Positions 4,786 to 61,140 of a stretch of 64,000 nt of DNA are shown piece by piece (the stretch's first letter is position 1; each line of letters opens with the position of its first letter). A program made the translations under genes and the position numbers. The stretch is from contig NZ_CP160398.1 of NCBI RefSeq assembly GCF_040729435.1, forward strand, positions 5,561,001 to 5,625,000. The letters are read 5' to 3'. Source of the stretch: Pseudomonas sp. HOU2. GTDB lineage: Bacteria > Pseudomonadota > Gammaproteobacteria > Pseudomonadales > Pseudomonadaceae. Under the pieces are notes generated by a model that was not told where the DNA came from, searched no databases, and saw nothing but the letters and a program-made list of their open reading frames with translations.

Positions 4786-4862
4786 GCGCCCGTAGCTCAG
4801 CTGGATAGAGCATCCGCCTTCTAAGCGGATGGTCGCAGGTTCGAGTCCTGCCGGGTGCGCCA
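4786..4862 (+). tRNA. tRNA-Arg (anticodon TCT)
   Basis: A 77-nt cloverleaf with acceptor stem GCGCCCG/CGGGTGC and encoded CCA. The anticodon loop CTTCTAA gives TCT. It is the first gene of a four-tRNA operon. Confidence 0.97.
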
Positions 4863-4894
4863 TTAGGCAGCTTTGGCACAAGTAACGCGATATG

Positions 4895-4970
4895 GTGGGC
4901 GTAGCTCAGTTGGTAGAGCACGGGATTGTGACTCCCGTTGTCGTGGGTTCGATCCCCATCGTCCACCCCA
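4895..4970 (+). tRNA. tRNA-His (anticodon GTG), copy 1
   Basis: A 76-nt cloverleaf with acceptor GTGGGCG/CGTCCAC. The discriminator C and the upstream G at 4894 (G-1) are typical of tRNA-His. The CCA is encoded. It is identical to the copy at 5189. Confidence 0.97.
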
Positions 4971-4977
4971 TATTTCG

Positions 4978-5009
4978 AAAGGCGCCAGATGTAACAGTCT
5001 GGCGCCTTT
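4978..5009 (+). other. Hairpin between tRNA-His and tRNA-Leu
   Basis: The stem AAAGGCGCCAGA/TCTGGCGCCTTT with an 8-base loop is almost the same as the operon terminator at 5272-5303 but lacks a long T run. It is the by-product of duplicating the tRNA-His unit with its 3' flank, and it could act as a processing or partial termination signal. Confidence 0.7.
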
Positions 5010-5027
5010 GCTTTAAAAGCTTCATCT

Positions 5028-5112
5028 GCGGATGTGGTGGAATTGGTAGACACACTGGATTTAGGTTCCAGCGCCGCGAGGCGTAAGAGTTCGAGTCTCT
5101 TCATCCGCACCA
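5028..5112 (+). tRNA. tRNA-Leu (anticodon TAG)
   Basis: An 85-nt class II tRNA with a long variable arm. The acceptor is GCGGATG/CATCCGC, the anticodon loop TTTAGGT gives TAG, and the CCA is encoded. Confidence 0.97.
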
Positions 5113-5188
5113 ATTAAAGCTTCATTCATGCCGCAGGCCTGATGAAGTTCAGCAAAGAAGTTGAATGGCTTTTTTGTGACGCAATATG

Positions 5189-5264
5189 GTGGGCGTAGCT
5201 CAGTTGGTAGAGCACGGGATTGTGACTCCCGTTGTCGTGGGTTCGATCCCCATCGTCCACCCCA
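5189..5264 (+). tRNA. tRNA-His (anticodon GTG), copy 2
   Basis: The 76-nt gene has the same sequence as the copy at 4895, with about 8 identical bases upstream and about 40 nearly identical bases downstream. This marks a recent tandem duplication or gene conversion. Confidence 0.97.
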
Positions 5265-14649: not shown

Positions 14650-14681
14650 GATCTTTTGATCTTGATCTTGATCTTGATCTT
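14650..14681. repeat. Short tandem GATCTT repeat
   Basis: GATCTT occurs five times: once followed by TT, then four in direct succession at 14658-14681. It lies next to REP fragments and could be a slippage site. Confidence 0.8.
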
Positions 14682-14786
14682 GTGGGAGCTGGCTTGCCAG
14701 CGATGGCGGCCTGTCAGCCGCCCCATCTCTGACTGCCCACCTCAATCCCTGTGGGAGATTCTATGTTGCTCAGCAACCCTAGAATC

Positions 14787-15722
14787 TCAAACTGATCGGT
14801 ATTCGCCCTGATTCTTCATCAGGGTGAATGCCACTCGGCAGAGCTTGCGAGCAAGAGCTACCAATGCCTGTGTTTTCGAGAAGCCTCTGGCCAGGTAAGA
14901 CTCGTAAAAAGGCTTCCACTTGGTTGAGCGACACGCCGCCATTGCGGCGTTGTAGGCTAATCGACGGATCTCCGGATCTCCTTTTTTGCTCAGGAACCTC
15001 GGGCCGTTCTTTTTCCCCGAATCGTCCACCGTCAGATCCATACCCAAAAACGCGATGAACGCGTCGCTGTTGGCAAAGTCACCGCGCATATAGGTCGTTG
15101 CCAACCCAGTCGCAGTCAACTCTCCCACGCCCTCGATTGCTTTGCAGCGGCCAATATTGTCATCAATACCGGCCTCTTTGCTGACTTTGCGCAGCAGGTT
15201 TTGAATGACCTTGTCGGATCGCTCGAATGCCTTTTGCTGAGCCGTACGTTCTTTCTTCAGCAAGGGTTCATCGGCCCAGCTCAACATCAGACCCGTATGG
15301 TTCTGAATCAGCGTCGCGCGTCTGTGCAGCAAGCTTTTCAGTACGGTGTAGGCTTTAGGAGGCGGGTTCCAAAGCCGCAGTTTGCTTTGTTCATTCGTCA
15401 GATAGCGTGCGAGCACGCGTGCATCGCAGGGATCATTTTTGGCTCGCTGACCGACACCGCGACGATAGTGGCTGACTCGATAAGCATCCACCACATAGAC
15501 CTGATGTCCCATCGCATGAGCCAGATCAACAGTCTCCAAATGGTAGATATTGGTGGCTTCGACAGCGATAGCGCTTTGCGCGGGCAGAGTTTTGAGCCAA
15601 CGTTTGAGGGCGGCACGATCATTCTTGACCGCTTCAATGGTTTCCAGGTCGGCGCGATAGACAACGATTTCGGCCTTGGCGATATCGATACCAACAACCG
15701 TCTGCGAAGTAAGGATTGTCAT
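14787..15722 (-). CDS. IS110-family transposase (DEDD recombinase)
   Basis: The 311-residue recombinase has an N-terminal RuvC-like domain with acidic residues D13 (GIDIAK), E55 (VEATNIY), D97 and D100 (NDPCDARVLARY). The C-terminal Transposase_20 domain has the helix-hairpin motif IEGVGELTATGL and a candidate catalytic serine S235 in VDDSGKKNG, followed by LSKKGDPEIRRLAYNAAMAA. IS110 recombinases insert elements through a bridge RNA that pairs with donor and target DNA. The length is close to that of the family and the frame is intact, so the element may be active. The start is ATG at the end of the noncoding region. Confidence 0.93.
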   Translation of the reverse strand: MTILTSQTVVGIDIAKAEIVVYRADLETIEAVKNDRAALKRWLKTLPAQSAIAVEATNIYHLETVDLAHAMGHQVYVVDAYRVSHYRRGVGQRAKNDPCDARVLARYLTNEQSKLRLWNPPPKAYTVLKSLLHRRATLIQNHTGLMLSWADEPLLKKERTAQQKAFERSDKVIQNLLRKVSKEAGIDDNIGRCKAIEGVGELTATGLATTYMRGDFANSDAFIAFLGMDLTVDDSGKKNGPRFLSKKGDPEIRRLAYNAAMAACRSTKWKPFYESYLARGFSKTQALVALARKLCRVAFTLMKNQGEYRSV

Positions 15723-15923
15723 GACGAATCCTCGGAGCTAGGGTTTAAGAGCTTGTTGGGGTCTACCGTTGCGCTGGCTTGTCTCTGTCGTCGGTTTACC
15801 GATGAATTCCTTATTGGCGCTTTGGGTAGAAGGGGCGGGACGAGAAGTCTCCCACGGTCTGTACTGGTCAGAGTCAGAATCGAGTCTGTAGTCCCGCCCA
15901 CCCCTTCAAGTCTAAACATACAA
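15723..15923 (-). ncRNA. Candidate IS110 bridge RNA region
   Basis: This 201-bp noncoding end lies directly 5' of the transposase, where IS110-type bridge RNAs are encoded. On the minus strand GGGCGGGAC pairs with GTCCCGCCC to close a large internal loop. The loop holds CAGACTCGAT (15888-15879), 8 of 10 identical to the left REP target CAGGCTCGCT. It also holds GTGGGAG (15855-15849), the exact complement of the right target CTCCCAC. These fit left and right target guides. A second, donor-binding loop is less clear, though a small hairpin TCGGT/ACCGA is present. RNA ends are not determined. Confidence 0.6.
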
Positions 15924-15980
15924 GCGAGCCTGCTCGCGAAGACGGTCGATCAGTCAACCAATCCGCGACAGACAAACCCA

Positions 15981-51630: not shown

Positions 51631-51631
51631 A

Positions 51632-51744
51632 AAAAAAAGACCCGGCAAAAAGCCGGGTCAAAAACCGTGATTAGCCTGATGAGGAGATAGTCCAGAAGAC
51701 CGACCTGAGGTCTCTGGTCCATCGACTGATCTCGCGACCAGCTG
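51632..51744 (-). ncRNA. prrF: PrrF-type iron-responsive small RNA
   Basis: The about 113-nt transcript on the minus strand begins just after a Fur box and a TATTAT -10 (51757-51752). It contains CTGGTCGCGAGATCAG near its 5' end and CTCATCAGGCTAATCACGG before the terminator, which I recognise from Pseudomonas PrrF RNAs. It ends in a stem GACCCGGC/GCCGGGTC with a long T run. PrrF RNAs are made at low iron and block translation of iron-using proteins such as SodB. Length and layout match PrrF1/PrrF2 of P. aeruginosa. Confidence 0.85.
51639..51659 (-). terminator. Terminator of the PrrF RNA
   Basis: The stem GACCCGGC (51639-51646) and GCCGGGTC (51652-51659) with a 5-base loop is followed by eight T residues on the minus strand. 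Confidence 0.88.
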
Positions 51745-51746
51745 CT

Positions 51747-51765
51747 TGCAATAATAATCATTATC
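51747..51765 (-). promoter_or_regulatory. Fur box over the PrrF promoter
   Basis: TGCAATAATAATCATTATC matches 15 of 19 positions of the Fur consensus, with the CATTATC half complete. It overlaps the -10 region of the PrrF RNA, the usual place for iron repression. Confidence 0.82.
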
Positions 51766-51835
51766 ATTTGCAAGTCAAATGTTTTTATCTGCGCGATTGG
51801 AAAATTCTTTCCTGTCCGTCCGCTTCCCGTCTCAG

Positions 51836-60734: not shown

Positions 60735-60767
60735 GATGTTCGGGGATTCGGGAATCACAGAAAGCAC

Positions 60768-60791
60768 AAAGGGGAGCCGAAGCTCCCCTTT
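60768..60791. terminator. Bidirectional terminator, synthetase gene and CrcY RNA
   Basis: The stem AAAGGGGAGC/GCTCCCCTTT with loop CGAA serves the plus strand (followed by AATTTTG) and probably marks the 3' end of the minus-strand CrcY RNA, whose T run is weaker. Confidence 0.8.
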
Positions 60792-61140
60792 AATTTTGTC
60801 GTCGCGTGCTCTTTTTTATTATTGAGGGGCGGTCTGTTGTTGTTTTTGGCAACCGTGGCCCTTTACCGCTGTTTTTGGCGACCCCCATCCGGAGTCAAGA
60901 GCAAACGTATTTTTTTGAGCGCTGATCTGCTTTCTCGTTAAACGATCCAACCGATTCGGGAGCTACCTGAAGGTAGTTTTATTGTTCTCTGCCCGGTTGC
61001 GGGTCACTCCTGAGAGCACCCTGAAAAGCACACCTTCTCCAAAAAAATCTGTTAGCTGCGTCTCTGCCGTGTTGTTTTTGTTATGTCAGAGTCGGTACGT
61101 CTTATTTTTATTGGTTTGCTGCTTTTTATTCTTGTTATGC
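60768..61140 (-). ncRNA. crcY: CrcY-type small RNA, Crc/Hfq antagonist
   Basis: This stretch of about 370 bases has no protein gene but on the minus strand carries at least six A-rich motifs of the Hfq/Crc-binding kind, AANAANAA: AACAAGAA, AATAAAAA twice, AACAAAAA, AACAATAA, AACAACAA and AATAATAA. A sigma-54 promoter lies just upstream, and a terminator hairpin lies at the 3' end. Such RNAs sequester Hfq/Crc and relieve carbon catabolite repression. I recall CrcY of P. putida next to mvaB, an HMG-CoA lyase gene, the same setting as here (liuE at 61298). Ends are estimated. Confidence 0.85.

Follow-up and report, generated by a model that had tools for sequence, protein, structure and literature searches.

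IS110 elements lying in REPs were reported in 2006 for ISPpu9, ISPpu10 and ISPa11 (PMC1525189), in a paper where, for both ISPpu9 and ISPpu10, seven of seven copies in Pseudomonas putida KT2440 are described as lying in REPs, always at a single point and with a repeat of 2 bp. The bridge-RNA mechanism, together with covariation between bridge RNAs and their targets, was published in 2024 with ISPpu10 among the examples (PMC11208160), the predicted guides and target of that element being given in Extended Data Fig. 10 of Durrant 2024. The same paper states that IS621 strongly prefers core pairing with both strands, and that recombination can be directed by reprogrammed bridge RNAs. ISPa11, an IS1111-group element with a seekRNA, is also RNA-guided into the REPs of Pseudomonas aeruginosa, and the available text of the seekRNA paper names one natural redirection, that of ISEc11 and ISXne4 (PMC11187229). 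Both the mechanism and REP homing are already known. What is new here is a fine-grained natural series of guide changes, in which close relatives, two of them in one genome, read different REP families, and an element that favours a minority REP type in its own genome while its paralogue, which has a different guide, occupies a different type. Our search of the open-access literature, with subscription papers and bioRxiv mostly outside it, returned no closer account of how guides change in elements that target REPs.

The element described here lies on the minus strand of a 64,000-nucleotide stretch of Pseudomonas sp. HOU2 DNA (the window). It is like ISPpu9 and ISPpu10 by description, and shares with IS621 a DEDD and serine recombinase, a noncoding left end, a CT core, ATA/TAT near the ends and, by prediction, target and donor loops and handshake positions (PMC11208160, PMC11208158); its likeness to ISCro4 (PDB 9t56) is one of recombinase homology (E 1.2e-18, the value for IS621 being 3.4e-18). 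It differs from IS621 in a right guide of 7 nt rather than 4, in the core-facing bases of the left guide, which are usually AT in the Pseudomonas elements, and in that the MFE folds of two Pseudomonas elements contain no separate 5' stem-loop. In ISPa11 the noncoding region is downstream of the gene (PMC11187229), whereas here it is upstream. We conclude, with a probability of about 0.93, that this is an insertion sequence of the IS110 group that has been active recently, and that its left noncoding end codes for a bridge RNA placing insertion in one REP family.

The element and its insertion point

The recombinase gene (14787..15722, minus strand, 311 aa) encodes DEDD_Tnp_IS110 and Transposase_20 domains, both scoring above the cut-offs (PF01548, the N-terminal DEDD domain, 70.9 bits; PF02371, C-terminal, 50.8 bits). 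Residues D13, E55, D97, D100 and S235 are invariant across 14 aligned recombinases, the window's included, and were also aligned with ISCro4 9t56. Domains, catalytic residues, end layout and CT core place the element in the IS110 group of the IS110 family; the long noncoding region downstream of the gene that marks the IS1111 group is absent, the right end being 29 nt.

With one copy of the core the element spans 14758..15924 (1,167 bp, minus strand), ends that are common to seven near-identical copies. The initial annotation, which gave 14756-15924, was right about the insertion, but that span counts both cores. These read CT on the minus strand, as it had noted, at the right (14756..14757) and left (15923..15924) ends, and AG at 14756-14757 and 15923-15924 on the plus strand. 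The right half of the target REP, CTCCCAC including the core, occupies 14751..14757 on the minus strand (plus-strand GTGGGAG) and the left half, TCGCGAGCAGGCTCG, 15925..15939 on the same strand; once the element is removed, GTGGGAG (14751-14757) and CGAGCCTGCTCGCG (from 15925) form a REP, and the proposal of an interrupted REP whose halves rejoin stands as made. Inside the ends are a left noncoding region of 202 nt (15723..15924, minus strand), the predicted bridge RNA, and a right noncoding region of 29 nt 3' of the recombinase gene (14758..14786, minus strand), with subterminal ATA/TAT repeats (CATAGAAT-CT-TGTATG).

Comparison was made with 138 copies from 43 genomes, drawn from 398 genomes searched, of which 51 had a match at 1e-60; sampling was limited to at most five copies per genome, the host excepted, and L013 was dropped as the same copy as L002. 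The extraction script located its left-end anchor, CTTGTATG, in all 138 copies, the right end CATAGAATCT in 135 of them, and the CT core at both ends in 135 of 138. The three copies in which the right end was not detected, all from G080, have the same terminus further out. These copies (L121-L123, from Pseudomonas sp. KNUC1026) have far longer right ends with an internal REP-like stretch, as if adjoining DNA had been captured.

An intact REP of the abundant CAAGCCAG type lies at window positions 14681-14706, about 50 bp from the interrupted REP, and a short tandem run of GATCTT (about 14655-14681) lies beside these REPs. The window also encodes the small RNAs CrcZ (60736-61138) and PrrF (51631-51778), both on the minus strand, and four tRNAs at 4786-5261. 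No exact empty site was found; in the best-matching relative, G011, the element is absent between the same neighbours, but the spacer differs. No Rfam family matched the element at gathering thresholds, and searches of 72,556 plasmid records (1e-60) and 50,697 phage records (1e-30) returned no match to it.

The host genome carries seven full copies, differing from the window copy by 0 to 4 bases and all inserted at the same REP point, ...TCGCGAGCA[G/A]GCTCG-CT-CCCACA; six are in the CAGGCTCG type of REP and one in the CAAGCTCG type. Other copies do not lie in unrelated sites either, since the canonical REP left arm ([AT]TCG[CG]) is present in 123 of the 138 copies and absent in 15. A host paralogue, with a protein 52% identical and another left guide, has two copies, at ATCGCTGGCAAGCCAG-CT-CCCACA. 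A further locus, L008 (host C1:5724035-5724111), is a 77-bp remnant at the REP position of the seven full copies, which ends in the right guide GTGGGAG and continues as an inverted REP. We considered that the recombinase had acted on its own guide DNA, and rejected this since the junction pattern occurs in only 2 of 398 genomes, in the second of them without the element's left end upstream; we prefer to explain the remnant by a deletion that arose by chance between repeats of 7 bp.

The predicted bridge RNA

In 14 of 14 comparisons, conservation is higher in the left end than in the coding sequence (93 against 71% identity with G139, 63 against 56% with the host paralogue), and in the left-end alignment the left-guide columns are variable and lie between invariant blocks. 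Conservation and a covarying structure are the grounds for predicting a bridge RNA here. Its target-binding loop is closed by helix 1, in which the 5' arm GGGCGGGAC (15891..15899, minus strand) pairs with the 3' arm GTCCCGCCC (15833..15841, minus strand); 94.4% of cells in this helix are paired, one pair being U-A in 12 and C-G in 9 of 21 sequences, and another being unpaired in 8 of 21. The donor-binding loop is closed by helix 4, GCGC at 15817..15820 with GCGC at 15771..15774 (both minus strand), which is invariant and hence gives no covariation.

The left ends fall into two stem types that align out of register, and for this reason RNAalifold, run on 42 of them, found only a poor consensus. 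Pair counts were therefore confined to 21 sequences that share one stem type, and G091, with a left end of 127 nt, was left out of the RNA alignments. Across the 21 left ends 96.8% of cells are paired in a structure of 29 pairs, a measure that is favoured because the structure was drawn with the same 21 sequences in view. Cells with a double change number 20, against 6.4 in shuffled alignments (0 of 500 reach 20) and at most 6 with slid partners. Two other counts do not separate from the shuffles: 68 of 500 shuffles have as many as the 4 pairs with a double change seen here, and 464 of 500 have as many as the 7 further pair types. Two of the 29 pairs do not form in 8 and 7, respectively, of the 21 sequences. 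Folded singly, the window's noncoding end has a z of -1.77, with 12 of 200 shuffles equally good. The structural evidence comes from the alignment, the single-sequence fold being only modestly above shuffles, and the fold that the initial annotation drew through GGGCGGGAC/GTCCCGCCC is upheld as to the stem, which is present and supported by the alignment, but not as a convincing single fold. Stem-arm energies (own -23.6, swapped -21.4, shuffled -18.0 kcal/mol) lend weak support, since purine-rich and pyrimidine-rich arms pair regardless. A separate 5' stem-loop is absent from the single-sequence MFE folds of L001, L037, L221 and L228 and forms in that of L226; L001 and L037 instead pair the 5' end with sequence in the 3' part of the RNA. 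The 5' stem-loop and the RNA-closing helix seem to compete for one strand, L226 forming the former and L221 and L228 the latter.

Two stretches within the target-binding loop would serve as guides. The left guide, AGACTCG (15881..15887, minus strand), matches its target AGGCTCG at six of seven positions; it had been annotated as matching at 8 of 10, and the guide is indeed present, but the part that matches across copies is the 7 nt before the core. The left guide does not pair with the CT core, as the dinucleotide that faces it (15879..15880, minus strand) is AT and not CT; over 45 elements it is AT in 33, CA in 8, CT in only 3 and AA in 1. This departs from IS621 in a point of detail, core pairing by the left guide not being known to define the family. 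The right guide, GTGGGAG (15849..15855, minus strand), keeps the core complement AG and is the exact complement of CTCCCAC, as had been read. Of 130 copies in which guide and target were both read by the script, 126 have a right guide exactly complementary to all 7 bases of the right target, and where it changes in relatives it changes with the target (GTAGGAG/CTCCTAC in four G094 copies, CGATGAG/CTCATCG).

On the donor side, the left donor ATAGAAT lies within the right noncoding end (14758-14764, minus strand) and would be read at five of seven positions by a predicted left donor guide AAGGAAT (15806..15812, minus strand), while a predicted right donor guide ACAAG (15778..15782, minus strand) would read the right donor CTTGT; CAAG is present in 42 of 42 sequences and the preceding base varies. 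A predicted handshake A after the right guide (15848, minus strand; A in 42 of 42) would pair with the last T of the left donor, and a predicted handshake C after the right donor guide (15777, minus strand) with the last G of the left target. The latter is C in 39 of 42, G in two rows of one element with target base C, and U in one; the last base of the left target is C in G080, with a matching handshake change, and C in G139, without one. Donor guides and handshake bases vary too little for covariation and are predicted from likeness to IS621 (PMC11208158).

A -35-like TTGCTG in the right noncoding end (14771-14776, minus strand) would stand 17 bp from a -10-like TATGTT (15915..15920, minus strand) once the ends were joined in a circle. 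Scored with a consensus and weights that are our own assumption, circle junctions average 5.13 (n=50), integrated ends 4.35 and controls 4.65 with sd 0.54 (n=135 for both of these); as many as 17% of the controls score at or above the mean for circles, so that the case for a junction promoter is weak. A hairpin of changing sequence lies just before CATAGAAT and overlaps the -35-like box; over 44 distinct right-end 24-mers it averages -7.2 kcal/mol against -3.5 when shuffled, and is below -4 in 75% against 37%. The window element's own right-end hairpin is weak (-0.7).

By what is known of the family, the recombinase would cut the element out as a circle closed at the CT core, the joined ends would create a promoter transcribing the bridge RNA, and recombinase bound to this RNA would exchange strands at CT. 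On the bottom strand the left guide would read the seven bases that precede the core, and on the top strand the right guide would read CTCCCAC; the statistics show that this reading directs insertion to one point of one REP family. The donor loop, as its anatomy predicts, would read the element's own joined ends.

Guide match, REP abundance and alternative readings

The register of the left guide is marked, with 6.05 of 8 positions matching over 45 elements and at most 3.19 in seven other shifts. In a position table of 122 of the 138 copies (G383, G128, G301, G091 and G186 left out), position -8 matches in only 23, guide A facing target C in 91. Over seven bases, and with a shifted register applied to one clade, the 138 copies match their own guide at seven positions in 62, six in 56, five in 14 and fewer in 6; the register was shifted by one for G383, G128 and G301, a choice made after seeing the data. 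L039, L053 and L055 match poorly, at 4 of 7 or less, and the left target of L039 (G186) is off its guide because both flanks are the same 16 bases (CTCCCACATTTGGTAG). Permutation of guides among targets separates clearly from observation: over 45 elements the own match is 6.13 against 5.08 (sd 0.11, maximum 5.50 in 5,000), and over 17 distinct guides in 187 copies 5.83 of 7 against 4.35 (sd 0.22, 0 of 20,000). The larger set adds 49 copies extracted after the idea was set, some of them from genomes already sampled; 80 of 156 further loci were listed, of which 7 were unread by the script, 23 were already in the set and 50 were new, one with an N being dropped. Among the later-added copies from named genomes, 45 of 50 match at 6 or 7 of 7.

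The dependence extends beyond the genus, where relatives with other left guides use other left targets. When 369 genomes of the class were searched, 8 had a match; besides the host these were seven genomes carrying eight loci, and L221, labelled a Natronospira MAG, brings the outside-genus loci to nine. All nine keep the ends CTTGTATG and CATAGAATCT, and their recombinases are 39-51% identical. Taking the best of nine registers for observed and permuted alike, left-guide match is 6.11 of 7 against 4.23 (0 of 20,000). In seven of the nine loci, 5 to 7 of the 7 positions beside a CT or CA agree with the guide; L227 and L229 match at 0 and 3 of 7 next to CT, reaching their score only at an implausible register. 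The right guides, taken at their best place in the loop, match at 7/7 in eight and 6/7 in one, over three right-target types. L230 and L233, in one genome, differ by one left-guide base, and the same base differs in their 7-base left targets. A phylum-wide search with a second query matched only the host (1 of 398 genomes).

Sites of four REP types were tallied in each of the 43 genomes. The host has 35 of CAGGCTCG, 141 of CAAGCTCG, 114 of CAAGCCCG and 508 of CAAGCCAG, and the window element uses them 6, 1, 0 and 0 times; CAGGCTCG is the best guide match yet rare in the host, and the probability of at least 6 of 7 copies falling in it from abundance among the four types is 4.8e-8. The paralogue uses the four types 0, 0, 0 and 2 times, which at P 0.41 by abundance alone is unremarkable and no evidence by itself. 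Across the 43 genomes 108 of the 138 copies were usable, the other 30 having a left target not among the four types or none counted. Copies at the best-matching type number 85 of 108, against 53.4 expected, and 23 are at a poorer-matching type; summed guide match is 8.6 sd above the abundance null, a value that none of 20,000 draws attained. In a choice model that charges every mismatch the same penalty, this penalty comes to 2.19 nats, about nine-fold, and lowers the negative log-likelihood from 101.1 to 52.1; the model still fits without the register-shifted G383, G128 and G301 (penalty 2.38, n=95). Wobble pairing is not supported as the cause of the 23 off-type copies, the wobble cost being 2.34 (jackknife SE 0.43) and that of other mismatches 1.97 (0.59), or 2.12 (0.44) and 2.92 (0.69) without the register-shifted clade.

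These results bear on whether REP specificity merely mirrors the commonest REP type of each host. Guide type and commonest counted REP do often coincide, and in G139 and G004 abundance seems to beat guide mismatch, the copies there being mostly at CCCC sites (the commonest counted type, 224 and 423 per genome) although the guide ends in G; rejection of the abundance-weighted null, and the copies of the host, G254, G125 and G367, which use mostly minority types, leave this reading scarcely any probability. That the recombinase protein itself recognises REPs, by sequence or hairpin, the guide-like matches being by-products of a REP-like noncoding end, is also very unlikely in our judgement. It would accord with CTCCCAC as the right target in 127 of 135 copies read, with the prevalence of the REP left arm, and with guide and recombinase being partly correlated along the tree. 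Against it, in one genome 508 sites of one REP type were available while the type with 35 was used, 8 of the 15 sites that lack the canonical left arm still agree with the guide at 6 or 7 of 7 positions in fixed register, and the seven outside-genus loci match their own left guides at other left targets.

The left end might instead be mainly an mRNA leader controlling recombinase translation, as for ISPpu9, rather than a guide RNA, for which there is the precedent of a 244-nt 5'-UTR and antisense RNA in that element (PMC8450116), and in two single-sequence folds its 5' part does pair with 3' sequence close to the start codon. This would leave the joint change of guide and target unexplained, and we consider it extremely unlikely as an alternative, leader and guide roles being compatible. 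We keep to the bridge RNA, and the proposal in the initial annotation of a bridge-RNA system with REPs as homing sites is supported, both guide-target match and RNA structure being conserved across copies in the alignment, permutation and abundance tests.

Guide change among relatives

A quick tree of 45 recombinases requires the guide to have changed at least 21 times, and the most common target 20 times. Independent pairs for guide-target change are few: at position -3 they average 4.9 in the same direction, 0 in the opposite direction and 1.1 without a difference (median p 0.0625); at -2 the direction is the same in 2 of 2, and at -6 the trend is weak, with 2 of 5 in the same direction and 3 showing no difference. 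In G290 two copies have the guide AGGCTCG and one AAGCTCG, all three being in AAGCTCG sites, the commonest of the four counted REP types in that genome.

The G290 set fits a route, offered tentatively and in our estimate somewhat likelier to be wrong than right, by which bridge RNAs are reprogrammed target first: an element would insert in a REP family that is abundant though mismatched to its guide, and the new specificity would then be fixed by a single-base change in that guide. By this route sibling elements may have moved among REP families and can share a genome while reading different ones. An equally speculative corollary is that the usual AT in the left guide may keep the RNA gene from being its own target.

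How guides change in nature is a natural next question after the demonstration that bridge RNAs are reprogrammable. One genus here provides a dense set of related elements with varied left guides and a near-constant right guide, whose potential targets can be counted genome by genome, and from this set come a cost of guide mismatch in the wild, roughly nine-fold each, and a ready series of natural guide changes.
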